Shown here in pieces: positions 31,619-64,000 of a stretch of 64,000 bases of DNA. Position 1 is the stretch's first letter. Each line of letters opens with the position of its first letter. The position numbers and the translations under genes are program-made. Source of the stretch: Winogradskya consettensis (GTDB lineage: Bacteria > Actinomycetota > Actinomycetes > Mycobacteriales > Micromonosporaceae). The DNA lies in NCBI RefSeq assembly GCF_018332715.1, contig NZ_BOQP01000043.1, forward strand, positions 1 through 64,000, in the 5' to 3' direction. Below the pieces are notes generated by a model that was not told where the DNA came from, did not search any database, and was given only the letters and a program-made list of their open reading frames with translations.

Positions 31619-33163
31619 GTGGCGACCAGGAGCGAGATCGGGGTGGCGTTCGGGCCCGGGCCGATGACCGTGGCCGGGCGCTATCGGCTGATCGCGGTGG
31701 TGGGCACGGGCGGGATGGGACGGATCTGGCGGGCGCACGACGAGCTGCTCGACCGCGTGGTGGCCGTGAAGGAGCTGTTCGCGGGTGGCGACCGGCAGGA
31801 GGCCCGGGTCCAGGTCGAGCAGGAGGCGGCGGCCGCTGCCCGGCTCGACCATCCGAACGTCGTACGCGTCTTCGACGTGGTCCGGGCGACCGGGCGGTCG
31901 TGGATCGTCATGGAGTACGTGCCGTCGCGCTCGCTGCACGAGGTCGTGACCCGCGACGGCCCGCTGACCCATCGCGAGGCGGCCCGCGTCGGCCTCGCCG
32001 TGCTCGACGCGCTCACCGCGGCGCACGACGCCGGGCTGCTGCACCTCGACGTGAAGCCGCACAACGTCCTGATCGCCGATGACGACCGGGTGGTGCTCAC
32101 CGACTTCGGGCTGGCCATGGACGCGACCCAGGAGAAGGGGCCGATGCTCGGCTCCCCCAACTACGTCGCGCCGGAACGGGTCCGTAACGGCAGGGCGGGC
32201 GTGAAATCGGATCTGTGGTCGCTGGGCGCGACGCTCTACGCCGCGGTCGAGGGCCGGCCGCCGTTCAGCCGGCCGAGCGTCAAGGAAGCCCTCGCGGCGC
32301 TGCTCACCGACGACCCCGACCCCACGACCCGCCCCGGTCCCCTGCACCCGGTCATCGCCGGCCTGCTCACCCGCGACTCCGCGAAGCGTCCCGGCACCAA
32401 GGCGACCCGGGCCGCCCTGCAGAAGCTGAGCGAGCGGGCAATCGGCATCGTCGCCGTCCCGCTCCCGCTCCCCGCGGTCGCTGTGGAAAAACGCGCCACC
32501 CCCAAGCGGACCAAGGTCGTCGTCGCGGCGGTCGGTTCGGTCCTGGCCGTCGCCGCCGCAATCACTTTCTCGGTACGCACGGAGCCCGCCGATCCCGCCC
32601 CCGACTCCGCTTCCACCTCCATCTCCGCCTCCGCCTCCACCTCCGCCGAAGCAGCGGCCGGCGCCCCGAGCGTCGCGCTCGTGAGCTGCGCGGCGATGAC
32701 GGCAACCGGGAGACCCGCGTCCACCACCGGTTTCCAGGTCCCGATCCCCCAGGGCTGGACCCGCACCAGCACGCCCGACGGCACCGTCTGCTTCAGCGAC
32801 CCGGACGGCGCCCGCACCTTCACCGTACGCAGCATCCCGCCCGTGACCGGCGACCCGTTGCGGTACTGGGAGACGGCGGAAGCGGCGAGTGCGCTCACGG
32901 CGTACCAAAGGATCTCTATGGGTGTGTTGCTCGTGACCGGCGGCGGAGCCGACTGGGAGTTCTCGTGGCAACCACCGGGCGGGCCTCGCCTGCACAGCCA
33001 CAAAGTGCTGGTCGCGCGGAAGTTCGAACTGACCTGGACCACCCGCGACCAGGACTGGAATGCCGGCCTCAGCACCCAGCGCACCTTCCTGGACGGCTTC
33101 CGCGACCCCACCAACTCCGCGTCACCGTGGGCCGTCCCCGGCCCCGGCCCTCGCAAACAATAA
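31619..33163 (+). CDS. Transmembrane serine/threonine protein kinase
   Basis: 514 aa, GTG start. Kinase domain at about 20-275: Gly-rich loop VGTGGMGRIWRAH, ATP-binding Lys51 in VAVKE, catalytic loop HLDVKPHN with Asp144 (Leu replaces the usual Arg of HRD), DFG at 162-164 and APE at 184-186. A basic stretch leads to one membrane helix at about 299-318. The extracellular part (after a Ser/Ala linker, about 340-514) has a globular domain with FQVPIPQGWTRTSTPDG and WETAEAASAL, but no PASTA repeats, so it likely senses a different ligand. The CHRD-like gene follows after 11 bp and the sortase after that, suggesting one operon. Confidence 0.9.
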   Translation: MATRSEIGVAFGPGPMTVAGRYRLIAVVGTGGMGRIWRAHDELLDRVVAVKELFAGGDRQEARVQVEQEAAAAARLDHPNVVRVFDVVRATGRSWIVMEYVPSRSLHEVVTRDGPLTHREAARVGLAVLDALTAAHDAGLLHLDVKPHNVLIADDDRVVLTDFGLAMDATQEKGPMLGSPNYVAPERVRNGRAGVKSDLWSLGATLYAAVEGRPPFSRPSVKEALAALLTDDPDPTTRPGPLHPVIAGLLTRDSAKRPGTKATRAALQKLSERAIGIVAVPLPLPAVAVEKRATPKRTKVVVAAVGSVLAVAAAITFSVRTEPADPAPDSASTSISASASTSAEAAAGAPSVALVSCAAMTATGRPASTTGFQVPIPQGWTRTSTPDGTVCFSDPDGARTFTVRSIPPVTGDPLRYWETAEAASALTAYQRISMGVLLVTGGGADWEFSWQPPGGPRLHSHKVLVARKFELTWTTRDQDWNAGLSTQRTFLDGFRDPTNSASPWAVPGPGPRKQ

Positions 33164-33174
33164 GGAGAACCCCC

Positions 33175-34059
33175 GTGAAACCGTCCCGGACCCTGCTGGC
33201 CGTGCCCGCAGCGATGGCACTGCTGTTCGCCGTCCCGACCGCGGCCCACGCCGACGAGAGCGTGCACGTCCAGCTCGACCCGCTGAACAACTCCGGCGCG
33301 TCGGGCACGGCCACTCTGACCGCCACCGACCGCGGCGACCTGAAGATATCCATCCGCTCCCAGGGCCTGGTCCCGAACTCCCCGCACGCCCAGCACCTGC
33401 ACGGCTCCACCGGCGGCATGGACTTCCACTGCCCCGACATGTCCGCCGACACCGACGGCAACGGCTACGTCAGCACCGAGGAGGGCATGCCCGTCTACGG
33501 CGACATCTTCGTCTCGCTGACCACCAAGGGCGACACCTCCAAGGCCAGCGGCCTCGCGGTCGACCGGATGCCGCTCTCGGACGCCAAGGGCAACCTCGCC
33601 TACAACCGCACCATCCCCGCCGCCGATCTGCCCGACGGCACCATCGCCCACCTCAAGGACCTGCACATCGTCGAGCACGGCATCGACGCGAACAACAACG
33701 CCAAGTACGACATGGACGGCCTCGGCGAATCCACGCTCGCCAAGTCCGCCGGCCTGACCGGCATCCCCGAGGAAGCCACCGACCCCGCCACCTGCGGCAT
33801 GGTCTCCGGCGCCGCGGCCGGGTCGGTCCCGGTCGGCGGGGTCGCCACCGGTGACGGCAGCACCCGCAACGACGGCAGTGGGATGTATGCCCTCGGCATC
33901 GCGCTGCTCGGCGCTGCCCTGCTCGGCGCCGCGTTCCTCGGCCGCCGGCGGATCTTCGCCGATTCGGTTGTGCACAATTTTGTTGTGCACAACAAAGTTG
34001 TGCGCAATTTAATTGCACACAACTCCAGCGCACGCAACCGAATCAACGACGAGCGCTGA
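33175..34059 (+). CDS. CHRD-like secreted/membrane protein with repeat-derived tail
   Basis: 294 aa, GTG at 33175 after AAGGAG. Signal peptide MKPSRTLLAVPAAM...AHADE. The body (VHVQLDPLNNSGASGTATL, PHAQHLHGSTGGMDFHCP) resembles CHRD-type beta domains with clustered His/Asp that may bind metal. A C-terminal membrane helix (YALGIALLGAALLGAAFLG) and RRR end the protein in the normal way, but the frame continues through a five-residue repeat (VVHNF, VVHNK, VVRNL, IAHNS) encoded by an AT-rich repeat element. No LPXTG. The sortase gene begins 2 bp after its stop, so the two are linked in expression and perhaps in function. Confidence 0.75.
   Translation: MKPSRTLLAVPAAMALLFAVPTAAHADESVHVQLDPLNNSGASGTATLTATDRGDLKISIRSQGLVPNSPHAQHLHGSTGGMDFHCPDMSADTDGNGYVSTEEGMPVYGDIFVSLTTKGDTSKASGLAVDRMPLSDAKGNLAYNRTIPAADLPDGTIAHLKDLHIVEHGIDANNNAKYDMDGLGESTLAKSAGLTGIPEEATDPATCGMVSGAAAGSVPVGGVATGDGSTRNDGSGMYALGIALLGAALLGAAFLGRRRIFADSVVHNFVVHNKVVRNLIAHNSSARNRINDER
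33961..34044. repeat. AT-rich palindromic repeat element, copy 1
   Basis: Outer arms GATTCGGTTG (33961-33970) and CAACCGAATC (34035-34044) are perfect inverted repeats. Inside, bases 33967-34023 are four units of 15, 15, 15 and 12 bp built on GTTGTGCACAA, including perfect TTGTGCACAA palindromes. The 57-bp core matches the reverse complement of 60574-60630 at 50 of 57 positions. The composition is far more AT-rich than its surroundings. It is translated as the C-terminal tail of the CHRD-like protein. Confidence 0.85.
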
Positions 34060-34061
34060 TC

Positions 34062-34751
34062 ATGGTGCGGCGCTATCTGCTCTCGGCCCTGGTCCTGCTC
34101 TGCACCATCGCCGGCGTGACCGCGATCGTCCGCGGCAGGTCGGAAGCGCGGCCGGCCGAGCCACGGATCGCCGCCGCCCCCACAGTGAGCGGCACGGCAA
34201 CGGCACAGCCGGGCGGCTCGGCAGCTGCCGCCGCGACGACGGGCGGGGCGGCAGGGACCGGCGTGCTGACCACCGGGCCGTTGATGAGTACGGCGGCGCC
34301 GACGCGGGTGTCGATTCCGGCGCTGAACGTGTCCGTGTCGGTGATCGGGCTGGGTCAGCAGGCGGATGGCAGCATGGCGGTGCCGGGGGACGCGAAGACG
34401 GTCGGGTGGTACACGAAGGCGCCGACGCCCGGCGCCCTCGGCCCCGCGGTGCTGGCCGGGCATGTCGACTTCAAGAAGCGGCCGGGTACGTTCGCCCGGC
34501 TGTCCACCCTGAAGTCCCATGACACGGTGACCGTGGAGCGCGAGGACGGCAGCATGGCGATGTTCGCCGTGACGAAGGTGGAGCGGTATCCGAAGGACAA
34601 GTTTCCCTCGGATGCCGTCTACGGAGCCATCAACTATGCCGGGCTACGCCTGATCACCTGCGGTGGTGACTTCGACAGCACGGCGGGTCACTACGAGGAC
34701 AACATCGTGGTGTACGCGACGCTCACGATGGCGCACCCAGCGACGTCATAG
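34062..34751 (+). CDS. Class F-type sortase
   Basis: 229 aa, ATG at 34062. N-terminal membrane anchor (YLLSALVLLCTIAGVTAIV), an Ala/Thr/Gly linker, then the sortase beta-barrel from about residue 80. The catalytic His is in AVLAGHVDF and the Cys in LITCGGDFDS. Sortases cut substrates after the Thr of LPXTG and join them to the wall; the LPITG (12088) and LPTTG (28767) proteins are candidate substrates. There is no arginine after the catalytic Cys, where the third catalytic residue normally lies; LRLITC has one just before it. Last gene of the kinase/CHRD/sortase run; its end overlaps the convergent hydrolase by 29 bp. Confidence 0.85.
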   Translation: MVRRYLLSALVLLCTIAGVTAIVRGRSEARPAEPRIAAAPTVSGTATAQPGGSAAAAATTGGAAGTGVLTTGPLMSTAAPTRVSIPALNVSVSVIGLGQQADGSMAVPGDAKTVGWYTKAPTPGALGPAVLAGHVDFKKRPGTFARLSTLKSHDTVTVEREDGSMAMFAVTKVERYPKDKFPSDAVYGAINYAGLRLITCGGDFDSTAGHYEDNIVVYATLTMAHPATS

Positions 34752-59716: not shown

Positions 59717-60460
59717 TCAGGCAAGGGCGCCGCCGTCGACACGAACGGTGCTGCCGGTGATGTACGCGGCGTCCGGCCCGGCCAGGAACGCCACCACACC
59801 GGCAACCTCGTCAGCCTCGGCGTACCGGTGCATCGGGATGACCGCCTGAAGCATGAACTGGCCACCCTCGGAATCCTTCGACATGGCCATGTCGGTGTCG
59901 ATGATGCCGCACTCGATCACGTTCACGTTGATCCCACGGGCGGCGAAATCCTGGGCCCACCCACGCGTGTACGCCGTGACCGCGGCCTTGGTCGCCGCAT
60001 AGTCGGACATGCCGGCTGCGAAGGTCTTGCTGGCAAGGCTGGACGACAGGTTCACGATCCGGCCGCCCTCGCGCATGTGCCGCACGGCCCGGTAGGTCGT
60101 GTCGGCGACACCGGTCAGGTTGATCGCGACCTGCTCATCGCGTCCGGCGTCGGTCAGCTCCCCGGGCCGGAAGACACCGGCGCTGTTGACCAGGATGTCG
60201 ATCCCGCCGAACCGCTGAGCGACCGCGTCCACCATGGCCGTCACCTGTGCCCGGTCGGCCTGGTCGGCCTGGATGCCCTCGGCGCGCACGCCCAGCGACC
60301 GCAGTTCCTCGACCACCGTCTTCGCCTTCGCCGCCTGTGCGACATAGGTGATGACCACATCCGCGCCCAGCGCAGCCAGCCGCCGGGCCGACGCCGCGCC
60401 GATCCCCCGGCTGCCCCCGGTCACCAGCGCCACCTTGTCCGACAGAATCTTCTCGCCCAC
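59717..60460 (-). CDS. SDR-family oxidoreductase, 3-oxoacyl-ACP reductase-like
   Basis: 247 aa, GTG at 60460 after AAGGGG; the frame extends 17 codons further without support. Classical SDR: TGGSRGIG at the cofactor site, ILVNSAGVF, catalytic Ser in IVNLSSSLAS and YAATK, and the C-terminal ITGSTVRVDGG that is typical of FabG-like enzymes. It likely reduces a ketone with NADPH. Unlike true fabG it is not in a fatty-acid operon, so the substrate is open. Confidence 0.9.
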   Translation of the reverse strand: MGEKILSDKVALVTGGSRGIGAASARRLAALGADVVITYVAQAAKAKTVVEELRSLGVRAEGIQADQADRAQVTAMVDAVAQRFGGIDILVNSAGVFRPGELTDAGRDEQVAINLTGVADTTYRAVRHMREGGRIVNLSSSLASKTFAAGMSDYAATKAAVTAYTRGWAQDFAARGINVNVIECGIIDTDMAMSKDSEGGQFMLQAVIPMHRYAEADEVAGVVAFLAGPDAAYITGSTVRVDGGALA

Positions 60461-60571
60461 GAGCCACTCACCCCTTGTGAAATCCGCGCCTACCCCGTGC
60501 CCGGTCAACACTCGCGGTCAGGACGCGCGCGGTCTTTCGCTGCGGCGCACAGCGCTTGCGCCAGGGCGCAT

Positions 60572-60632
60572 AGGTTGTGTGCAATTTAGTTGCGCACAAC
60601 TTAATTGTGCACAACCAAATTGCACACAACCT
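60572..60632. repeat. AT-rich palindromic repeat element, copy 2
   Basis: Perfect 16-bp inverted repeats (AGGTTGTGTGCAATTT at 60572 and its complement ending at 60632) enclose TTGTGCACAA and GTTGCGCACAAC words. The 57-bp core (60574-60630) is the reverse complement of copy 1 with 7 mismatches. It lies 7 bp after the stop of the large subtilase gene and could serve as its terminator. Confidence 0.88.
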
Positions 60633-60639
60633 TTCTCGC

Positions 60640-63600
60640 TCAGCTGCGCCCGTAGGCCCGGATGACGGTCTGGGTGAGCGCGTTACCGGCAGTGTCCTCA
60701 GCGGTGACCCGCAGCGAGACCGGCGTCCGCCCCGGCAGAACAACCGCGGTGGTGCCGATGACAACAGCGCGACTCCAGCTGGCGCCGTCGTTGGTGGACA
60801 CCTCGACCTTGAGCGACTTCAACTTCGCGGAGAAGGCGAGGTTCACCCCGAGCGCCTGCGGCGTGTAGTTCACCCCGAGCAGCGGCAGGTCACCCTCGGA
60901 CTTCGATTTGAAGGTCCATTCGGATTCGGTACGCGTGCCGTACACCCAGTCCTCGTTGCTGCGAGCCGTGCCGACCTTCAGCTTGTACGTCGCCTGCCCG
61001 GCCGTGGTGGTGACGTCCCCGATGCCGCCGGCCAGGTCGGCGATCTGCTTGCCGTCACGCGACAACGTTCCTGTGGCGTTGTCGCCGTACTCGGCGAGCT
61101 CGTAGTGGCCGTCGCTGTCGACGAACTCCGGAACCTGCAGGTGCAGCACGTCGCCGGAGCGGTACGAGCCGACGTTCGCGGGCCGCACGACCGCGGCGCC
61201 CCACTTCTCCGACTTGGCGCCGGCCTTGTAGCTCGTGGTCGCGCCCTGGAAACCGCCGAGCAGCGGGCCCTCGGTGTTCCACGGGTATTCGTGCGCCACC
61301 GCGTGCCGCCAGACCGAGTCGCCGGCCGAGACCCACTCCTCGCGGGTGGACGGGGTGCTGACCGGGCGCGAGGTGTCGTTCCACGCGACGGTCTGCCAGG
61401 GGCGCCAGCCGAAGCGCTGCTCGCGTACCCAGTCGAAGCCGCCGTTGTCCGCATAGCTGGACGTGATCCGCATGCTGTTGGCCGCGGTGACCTTGTAGAC
61501 GACCTTCTCCGGGATCCGGTCCTTGGAAACCTGAAGAACGTCATAGAGGTACGGGCTGGAAGTGGTCAAAGTCAGGTCGAGTGTCGAGGGCGCCTTCTTC
61601 ACCAACCTCTGACCATCGTCGTACGCGACAGCCAGCGCGACGATCGGCAACCGCTCGACGATCGTCGGGTTGAAAACCGTCCACGCGCTATGGTCCGCAG
61701 GCCGCACCACCAGGGCGACTGCCGCGCCGGCCTTGGCCGCGGCGATGACCTGCTCGTTCTCGTCGGTCTCCCAGCTGCCCGGGATCAGGACGGCTTTTCC
61801 GCGTACGTCCTTGGTGCCCCACTTGACCAGCTGGTACTTCCTCGTGCCGTCGAACCACGGCGACTCGCCGACGAGGTTCGCGTCGATCGGCTCGCTGACC
61901 CCGGGCACCTTCGTCTGGACCCGCGGCGCGACCAGCTGCCAGCGCGACGAGAACTCGAAACTGCCCTCGACGACCTTCTTCGTCGGCACCACGTTGACCT
62001 TCTGGACCGTACTGAAATGCATGACGCCGTGGGCGATGCTGCGGCCCGTCCCAGTGGTGCGGTGGATGTAGTAGCTGAGCACCGTCTGCTGCTCGGCCGG
62101 CTTCGGCGTCTCGATCGTGATCGGCGTGCCCTTACGCGCGTCGACCAGCACCGTGATGTCCTTGTCGACCTTCAGCTCGGGGATCGTGACAAACGTGACC
62201 TGCTCGTCCAGCGGCGCGCCGTCCTCGATGAGCGCGTCCAGCAGGTACGTGCCTTCCTGCAGCTCGTACGTGTTGCCGGCCGGGGTGAGCCAGCCCAGCG
62301 TGTCGAACCGGCTGTCGTCGCCGCGCAGGTCCAGCACGGGAACGGTGGTCGGCTGACCGGACCGGTTCACCGCCTTGACGGTGACCTTGTGGCTCGGGCC
62401 GTCCAGCACCGCACCGACCGCGGTGGTGACGGTGATCCCGGTGGCGGTGGCGCTGATCCAGCCGCTGATCTTGCCGGGCTTCTGCGCGGCGAAGTCGATC
62501 GTGGCGGTCACCGTCGCCGTGGCTTTCGCGGGCACCGTCACCGTCGCGGCGCTCAGCTTCACGGCCGTGGGAGCGGTGAGCTTCAGGGTCACCGGAGTCG
62601 CGGCGGAGTTGGTGTACGTGATCGTCTTCGACTCGGTGGCCGGCGACGTCCCCTTGGTGTGCACGCCGTAGTCGGCGATCGGGGTGCCGGTCACCGCCTG
62701 GGTCGTCACGCGAGCGAGGTCGACGCGGCCGGCGCCCTGCGCGTACACATCGGGTCCGGTTGTTGTCTTGGCCGTGCTGACCAGGGCTTCCTTGATCTTC
62801 GCGCCGGACCAGTCCGGGTGCTGCTGAGCCACGATCGCGGCCGCCCCCGCCACGTGCGGCGTCGCCATCGACGTCCCGGAAGCCGCCGTGTAGAACTCGT
62901 CCACCGGCTCACCCATGGTCGTCCCGGCCGCCCGGGCCGCCACGATGTCCACCCCCGGAGCCGTGATCTCCGGCTTCAACCCCAGGTCACCGAGCCGCGG
63001 CCCACGGCTGGAAAAACTGGCGATCTGATCGGTACGGTCGACCGCGCCAACGGTCAGCGCATCGGTCGCCGCGCCCGGCGTCCCGACACTCGAATCGGCG
63101 CCCTCGTTACCGGCAGCAACCACGAACAGCGCGCCGCTGGCCGCACTGATCTCGTCGACGGCCAGACTCATCGGGTCGAGCCCGTCGGTAGCCCCGCCCC
63201 CGAGGCTCATGTTGACAACCTTCGCCCCCGAGTCGACGGCCCACTGCATCCCGGCGATGATCTCGGACTCGTACCCCGTCCCGTCATCACCGAGCACCTT
63301 GCCGATCAGCAGATCCGACCCGTACGCGACACCCTTGCGACTCCCCCCGGAAGCAGCCCCGGACCCTGCAATCGTCGACGCCACATGCGTCCCGTGCCCG
63401 AACCGGTCAACCACATCCGGGCTGCTGCTGAAGTTGGCAGTCCCGGCAATCTTCCCGGCCAGGTCAGGGTGGGTCGCGTCAATCCCGGTGTCCAAGATGG
63501 CCACCTTCACGCCCCGCCCGTCAAGCCCTTGCTGCCACGCCGTCGGCGCACCGATCTGCGCGGTGCTCTTGTCGAGCGCCGCCTTCACCTTGCCGTCCAG

Positions 63601-64000
63601 GAAAATCTGGGTGGCGCCGCTCAACCGCGCCTGCCCACCCTGGCTCTTCCAGAACTCGGCCAAACTGCTCTTCGCCGGCCTGACCGCGGTCGCCCCGATA
63701 CTGGTCATCGCCAGCGCGGCCCCCGCTGTCCGCAACCCCGCGGTGCCACCCTTGACGATCAGCGGCAAACTCGCCGAGTCAGCATCGCCATACCCCTCAG
63801 CAACCAGATGCTCAACATCGAACAGCTCCGCATCAACCCGGCCATCCGCAATCAACGGCACCGCGTCCGACGGAACAACCCGGATCCCGCCATCACCCTC
63901 GAACGTATGAAAGCTGACCCGCTCCCGCCCGGCCGCAGGCGTCACCGAGGCAGCAAACTTCCCGCCCTCGACGGGCGCCAGCCGCACAACATCCCCGGTG
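60640..64000 (-). CDS. Large secreted subtilase (S8), 5' end outside the window
   Basis: Partial: the frame is still open at the window edge and the visible N-terminus (TGDVVRLAPVEGG...) is the usual segment after a signal peptide, which must lie beyond 64000. About 1,120 residues are seen. The triad is Asp in ILDTGIDATH, His in RFGHGTHVAS and Ser in SGTSMATPHVAG, with AAGNEG between. A Fn3-like domain follows the catalytic part, then a long beta-rich region (PA-like around KYQLVKWGTKDVRGKAVLI) and a C-terminal Ig-like piece. Typical of giant actinomycete subtilases; substrates unknown. Confidence 0.9.
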   Translation of the reverse strand, partial: TGDVVRLAPVEGGKFAASVTPAAGRERVSFHTFEGDGGIRVVPSDAVPLIADGRVDAELFDVEHLVAEGYGDADSASLPLIVKGGTAGLRTAGAALAMTSIGATAVRPAKSSLAEFWKSQGGQARLSGATQIFLDGKVKAALDKSTAQIGAPTAWQQGLDGRGVKVAILDTGIDATHPDLAGKIAGTANFSSSPDVVDRFGHGTHVASTIAGSGAASGGSRKGVAYGSDLLIGKVLGDDGTGYESEIIAGMQWAVDSGAKVVNMSLGGGATDGLDPMSLAVDEISAASGALFVVAAGNEGADSSVGTPGAATDALTVGAVDRTDQIASFSSRGPRLGDLGLKPEITAPGVDIVAARAAGTTMGEPVDEFYTAASGTSMATPHVAGAAAIVAQQHPDWSGAKIKEALVSTAKTTTGPDVYAQGAGRVDLARVTTQAVTGTPIADYGVHTKGTSPATESKTITYTNSAATPVTLKLTAPTAVKLSAATVTVPAKATATVTATIDFAAQKPGKISGWISATATGITVTTAVGAVLDGPSHKVTVKAVNRSGQPTTVPVLDLRGDDSRFDTLGWLTPAGNTYELQEGTYLLDALIEDGAPLDEQVTFVTIPELKVDKDITVLVDARKGTPITIETPKPAEQQTVLSYYIHRTTGTGRSIAHGVMHFSTVQKVNVVPTKKVVEGSFEFSSRWQLVAPRVQTKVPGVSEPIDANLVGESPWFDGTRKYQLVKWGTKDVRGKAVLIPGSWETDENEQVIAAAKAGAAVALVVRPADHSAWTVFNPTIVERLPIVALAVAYDDGQRLVKKAPSTLDLTLTTSSPYLYDVLQVSKDRIPEKVVYKVTAANSMRITSSYADNGGFDWVREQRFGWRPWQTVAWNDTSRPVSTPSTREEWVSAGDSVWRHAVAHEYPWNTEGPLLGGFQGATTSYKAGAKSEKWGAAVVRPANVGSYRSGDVLHLQVPEFVDSDGHYELAEYGDNATGTLSRDGKQIADLAGGIGDVTTTAGQATYKLKVGTARSNEDWVYGTRTESEWTFKSKSEGDLPLLGVNYTPQALGVNLAFSAKLKSLKVEVSTNDGASWSRAVVIGTTAVVLPGRTPVSLRVTAEDTAGNALTQTVIRAYGRS

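Follow-up and report, generated by a model that had tools for sequence, protein, structure and literature searches.

The ohrR operator, the binding site of the MarR-family organic-peroxide repressor OhrR, was probably (probability of about 0.7) amplified in the ancestor of Winogradskya consettensis and its sister species Winogradskya humida into a family of REP/MITE-like, hairpin-forming arrays of OhrR boxes. What is new is the combination, i.e., an operator that appears to have grown into a repeat family within a lineage of two species. Two elements of this family, henceforth called copy 1 and copy 2, lie in the 64,000-nucleotide stretch of W. consettensis DNA that was analysed (the window), and the features at and around them are collected in Table 1.

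Table 1. Coordinates of the two window copies, their OhrR-box matches and their neighbouring genes.
Feature	Position	Strand	Remarks
Protein with GVDTG-type C-terminal sorting signal	33163..34059	+	NCBIfam NF058571, residues 222-263 of this reading frame; start codon uncertain
Element copy 1	33961..34044	.	four 15-bp-spaced units (33968-34022) and a decayed fifth unit (34028-34037)
OhrR-box match RCAAYTNARTTGY (GCAATTTAATTGC) in copy 1	34004..34016	.	
Sortase (PF04203)	34062..34751	+	downstream neighbour of the sorting-signal protein
Short-chain dehydrogenase	59717..60460	-	called start 114 bp from copy 2
Element copy 2	60572..60632	.	four units, 28-bp arms, intergenic
Two OhrR-box matches in copy 2	60581-60593 and 60596-60608 (60581..60608)	.	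15 bp apart
Subtilisin-like protease	60640..63987	-	named by eye from sequence; stop codon 10 bp from copy 2

The AT-rich palindromic element with a 15-bp internal period that the original prediction had placed at the position of copy 1 was confirmed by its units and its outer repeat. Its intact units start at 33968, 33983, 33998, and 34013, i.e., at a spacing of exactly 15 bp with 5-bp spacers, and read in order TTGTGCACAA, TTGTGCACAA, TTGTGCGCAA, and TTGCACACAA; the fifth unit, decayed in the window genome, is intact in W. humida. The outer inverted repeat is perfect over 10 bp (GATTCGGTTG at 33961-33970, CAACCGAATC at 34035-34044), and the 57-bp core (33967-34023) has a G+C content of 22/57 by direct count, compared to 0.71 for positions 32001-34000. 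The second window copy, expected at 60574-60630, was borne out with slightly wider limits; its units start at 60575, 60590, 60605, and 60620, and its arms (60572-60599 and 60605-60632) are 93% complementary. None of the 12 relatives searched for the orthologous region of copy 2 aligned across the element. The sequence of genome G027 matches at 94% identity as far as base 60573 and differs thereafter; the similarity, which covers the short-chain dehydrogenase and the region upstream of it (59900-60573), ends at copy 2. The sorting-signal gene has a G027 match of 81% identity, compared to 94% for the dehydrogenase region. In this sequence comparison, the G027 junction is a synteny break with no clean empty site, and copy 2 would appear to mark a synteny or transfer breakpoint.

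For the genome-wide search that had been proposed with the original prediction, the W. consettensis genome (10.6 Mb, 112 contigs) was searched with the two-unit pattern TTGYGCRCAANNNNRTTGYGCRCAA at up to two mismatches, which gave 88 matches per strand and 0 for the reversed control, i.e., a family and not just two copies without conservation. In total, 39 elements of this genome were read; as these cover 80 of the 88 matches, the genome holds slightly over 40 elements. In W. humida, about 40 elements were found, of which 40 were read. The repeat unit is 15 bp long (TTGYGCRCAA-YTNAR), and the unit caller returned 2-6 units per element, with the units spanning 25-85 bp. Within the window alone, a single unit at up to one mismatch is only moderately unusual (12 matches, shuffled mean 5.5, 2/100 shuffles as high). 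The majority ends of the elements, GTTAGGTTG and CAACCTAA, are terminal inverted repeats; across both genomes, TGCA stands in the middle of both units in 20/27 two-unit copies, and the commonest three-unit form has the middles TGTG, TGCA, and CACA (11/26). One W. humida copy (L194) runs on into GTTAGGTTGTGTGCC-type repeats, i.e., 15-bp units of a second type that have another spacer. Contigs of both assemblies (W. consettensis, G000; W. humida, G042) begin within or near elements (L003, G000:C5:9; L099, G000:C21:11; L125, G042:C48:68), as if the repeats broke the assembly there.

The expansion was delimited with a stricter pattern (up to one mismatch), which matched 62 times in W. consettensis and 78 times in W. 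humida; a further search of W. humida at up to one mismatch gave 80 matches, with 0 for the control. In a survey of 120 relatives (67 in the genus, including W. consettensis itself, and 53 outside it), 23 matched the stricter pattern, namely the two expanded genomes and 21 others with exactly one match each. None of the 53 relatives outside the genus and none of 44 of the 65 other genus members had a match at this stringency; because of the latter, the ohrR operator is not uniformly conserved in the genus. A phylum-wide draw of 396 genomes yielded three matching genomes, i.e., W. consettensis, G391, and G447, the latter two with one match each, and outside the two expanded genomes no genome searched had more than one match. 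A 40-bp three-unit pattern searched against the GTDB contig collection, a search that possibly excludes the window's own records, matched solely Winogradskya humida NBRC 14915 (14 stretches). Viral contigs had no match to the exact two-unit pattern, and plasmids and phages had none to one 60-bp element.

The unit-spacer-unit core of the elements equals the published 13-nt OhrR box of Streptomyces avermitilis, ACAATTNAATTGT, for which the excerpt of PMC6034001 also gives the S. coelicolor counterpart, GCAACTNAATTGC. Two 13-nt OhrR sites span a 28-nt footprint in the same excerpt; the boxes therefore lie 15 bp apart, which is the period of the arrays described here and the spacing of the two boxes of copy 2. 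Boxes of the form RCAAYTNARTTGY numbered 66 in the 39 W. consettensis elements and 76 in the 40 W. humida elements, with at least one in all 79, and the 224 kb of flank retrieved around them held only one; the elements had been selected by a related pattern. Across the whole window, this box occurs exactly three times, at 34004 (copy 1), 60581, and 60596.

Each of the 23 single sites found beyond the two expanded genomes (21 in the genus, G391, and G447) adjoins an OhrR-type gene. At 19 of these loci, the ORF immediately downstream carries a DSGTLSPLLKRLE-type motif; the downstream ORFs of L018, L026, and L034 carry a slightly different OhrR-type motif, and L038 also lies beside an OhrR-type ORF. 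The three single-site loci that were read through all continue with an Ohr-like gene, and one of these genes was identified as Ohr by family search (TIGR03561). The OhrR protein belongs to MarR in Pfam; two OhrR proteins matched the NCBIfam (Vibrio) OhrR model at an E-value of about 1e-39, below its cut-off, and for the W. consettensis OhrR the best solved-structure match was B. subtilis OhrR (1z91), with the LCF cysteine region kept. The W. consettensis ohrR gene (C8:449285-449704) has three units in its promoter, within about 55 bp of the called start. The ohrR/ohr promoter position is thus held by the ohrR copies of both species (L011, L040) and by the 23 single sites; the window copies and the other elements read do not lie in an ohrR/ohr promoter. 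The earlier suggestion of MarR/OhrR-type operators was hence right at the level of sequence, and that of a mobile or REP-like element fits the dispersed palindromic distribution, with copies that are presumably mobile.

Counterparts at orthologous places among the 40 elements read in W. humida were found for 32 of the 39 W. consettensis elements, so the family is older than the split of the two species. Flanking DNA of the paired loci is 81-97% identical (mostly 93-96%). The number of units was called differently in 10 of the 32 pairs, and changes on both arms separate some pairs (L093/L045, L092/L114). W. humida has no element at the places of L001 and L007, nor has W. consettensis at that of L124; at these empty sites the joins and flanks have diverged, and no clean insertion boundary or clear target-site duplication was found. 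The L102 place is occupied by other sequence in W. humida, an element end is kept at the L110 place, and the flanks of L047 and L186 had no match in W. consettensis. Flank matches of more than 120 bp between different loci were restricted to one pair among the 39 W. consettensis loci and two pairs among the 40 W. humida loci (about 77% identity), and no extended stretch common to the flanks was found next to the copies at these loci.

A minority of copies lies in frame within protein genes; these copies encode C-terminal ends or, in the case of a polyketide synthase, part of a linker between two domains. As 15 bp equal five codons, gain or loss of units never shifts the frame. Copy 1 is read, as had been noted, as a protein tail after RRR: the frame of the sorting-signal protein ends in RRRIFADSVVHNFVVHNKVVRNLIAHNSSARNRINDER and the stop codon, with the tail behind a hydrophobic stretch and RRR. 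The label "CHRD-like" given to this protein was not upheld, as Pfam returned 0 families at an E-value of 1e-5 and NCBIfam a GVDTG C-terminal sorting domain. The W. humida protein has the same tail with the fifth unit intact. A check of orthologues for the tail had also been proposed; at 28 loci from other relatives, 0 of the 27 readable orthologues (L162 was unreadable) had it, and the readable proteins end 2-15 residues past the arginines, except for two that end within about a dozen residues of RR. Since the tail lies behind the sorting signal and a sortase is encoded next to it, sortase cleavage should remove the tail together with the membrane anchor. In PqqC (TIGR02111), the domain match ends at residue 230-231, and the last approximately 25 residues, SSCTQLGCVRFNCAQLNCPQPNGAR, come from an element; this tail is found in both species directly before a pqqD-pqqE fusion (L132, 773-1543; L129, reverse strand). 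It is cysteine-rich in both, with a cysteine about every five residues. The third translated copy (L007) separates the KR domain of the polyketide synthase from the methyltransferase domain, and the fourth (L186) is located within a long W. humida ORF resembling a synthase linker.

Folding was compared with 200 shuffles on the + strand for copies 1 and 2, both of which folded better than all shuffles (z of -4.65 and -9.5 as RNA, -4.5 and -8.9 as DNA). Six RNA folds of five elements all gave strong hairpins (z -4.65 to -12.8). The middles of the outer units are complementary in 43/79 elements, a count that takes orthologous pairs twice, compared to a shuffled mean of 26.7 (0/5000 shuffles reached the count); where the outer middles are not self-palindromic, they are complementary in 18/54 elements. 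Covariation was assessed on 24 three-unit copies: cells changed on both sides numbered 23 compared to 12.6 in shuffles (0/500), and the covariation score and the pairing (92.7%) were each reached in 1/500 shuffles. Pairs with a double change (5 vs. 4.8; 317/500 shuffles) and further pair types (16 vs. 15.7; 312/500) were no better than in shuffles, and these two measures are those least inflated by relatedness. Slid structures were lower than the actual hairpin on all five measures. A constraint on the whole hairpin is supported, not proved, because the copies are related by descent.

Selection on half-sites was considered but is not claimed. The first count gave 2/564 changed half-site columns vs. 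49/376 changed middle columns but was biased, as the elements had been found by a pattern that fixes half-sites; this strong effect vanished in a fairer count restricted to units called in either genome and outside both detection windows, in which no half-site selection was found (13/205 vs. 13/136 changed, p 0.30; vs. flanks, p 0.04). Every one of the 99 single mismatches falls in the middle of a unit, an observation that is subject to the same detection bias and reflects subfamilies. In L010, L024, and L092, the hairpin is extended by locus-specific flank sequence. Insertion into pre-existing terminators was not adopted as a reading, since flank palindromes over 65 elements were in only weak excess over shuffled flanks.

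Twenty-seven genes start within 300 bp downstream of one of the 39 W. consettensis elements, and the copies agree with a functional OhrR operator in their sequence and in the 15-bp spacing of their boxes, as far as the excerpt of PMC6034001 goes; both points speak for an expanded OhrR regulon, in which the copies would be selected operators placing tens of genes under peroxide control. A Pfam scan of all 27 genes, however, assigned families to 25 (two were without), and these are functionally mixed: sortase, dehydrogenase, trehalose-phosphate-synthase-type GT20, TetR, BTAD regulator, kinase, GAPDH, cellulase, peptidase, luciferase-like, PhoD, radical SAM, ohrR, and others, several being oxidoreductases, with no coherent peroxide regulon among them. 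Positions of the 39 copies, assigned with a simple codon-usage gene caller, were tandem (20), convergent (10), divergent (4), overlapping genes (3), and at contig edges (2). Among the 34 intergenic copies, 4 thus lie between divergent and 10 between convergent genes, whereas divergent gaps make up 3009/7344 intergenic bases of the window (a small background), so divergent promoters look under-used by the copies. As the neighbours are functionally mixed, most copies are intergenic, and few are divergent, such a regulon is unlikely, and the 3/39 copies that overlap genes also count against it.

Strong RNA hairpins, outer-unit complementarity above shuffles, and copies down to 1-20 bp from stop codons would likewise be accounted for by a structural RNA or DNA hairpin family acting as terminator or mRNA-end stabiliser, with an incidental likeness to the OhrR box. 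We consider this quite unlikely, given that every single-copy match elsewhere adjoins an OhrR gene and that other copies lie upstream of starts. Moreover, a scan made at copy 1 only found no terminator-like site by consensus around it, and no Rfam family scored above its gathering score at 33500-34500, the sub-threshold matches over copy 1 being mostly microRNA hairpins. That the elements are a classical REP family moved by a RAYT (Y1) transposase is mostly refuted and highly improbable. Although they resemble REP/BIME sequences in being short palindromes that lie mostly outside genes and number in the tens, and one Y1_Tnp match was found in W. humida, the majority consensus of the 24 three-unit copies has no GTAG tag, the W. 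consettensis genome has 0 Y1_Tnp matches, and the repeat unit is the operator of a repressor. Nor does the presence of Y1 genes follow that of the repeats: among six relatives lacking the expansion, three had 3-5 Y1_Tnp matches and the other three had none. E. coli REPs also occur in far more copies than the family described here.

Other known systems resemble the family in part. The S. avermitilis ohrR-ohr operator shares the 13-nt box, the implied 15-bp stacking, and the presence of a MarR-family OhrR, but the excerpt of PMC6034001 gives few further sites, with 2-3 mismatches, in contrast to about 40 arrays of 2-6 units here, most of them away from ohrR. MITEs such as Correia elements with an IHF site are also small dispersed inverted repeats able to carry a protein-binding site (PMC10969869, in part); the present elements differ in that no clear target duplication and no cognate transposase (Y1_Tnp searched) were found and that they consist almost entirely of binding sites. 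Rickettsia palindromic elements, too, are palindromes ending in frame within protein genes (PMC10969869, same excerpt), but are approximately 150 bp long, whereas the units here are frame-neutral 15-bp units and most copies are intergenic. No report of dispersed OhrR-operator repeats was found in the open-licence literature, as judged from titles and the starts of abstracts.

Under the preferred reading, i.e., amplification of the ohrR operator, an ohrR-type operator (a pair of half-sites flanking YTNAR, repeated with a 15-bp period) would have multiplied to about 40 copies in the ancestor; the direction would be from operator to repeat and not the reverse, because the single ohrR site is widely spread. 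Copies would gain and lose 15-bp units and, with outer units often complementary, many could fold into a long hairpin. They may have spread as REP/MITE-like elements with a putative helper, and the hairpin constraint would be consistent with copying or correction templated by the hairpin as the DNA replicates. OhrR would be predicted to bind the dispersed copies, making them decoys that titrate it; less free OhrR would then raise ohrR expression and so compensate, because ohrR carries an array in its own promoter. A further-reaching version, in which the OhrR-box arrays are a selfish-like repeat and OhrR, with at least 66 boxes, is also a peroxide-sensitive chromosome-binding protein whose binding protects or propagates the palindromes and thereby keeps the copies, seems rather unlikely.

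Repressor operators are usually thought to arise promoter by promoter. An operator that was apparently multiplied tens of times in a single recent ancestor would be a natural test of how a cell copes with massive titration of a sensor. The family also tests whether operator-bearing repeats seed new regulons and how 15-bp (five-codon) palindromes turn into protein tails and linkers, and the two sister species together with many relatives without the expansion provide a clean comparison.
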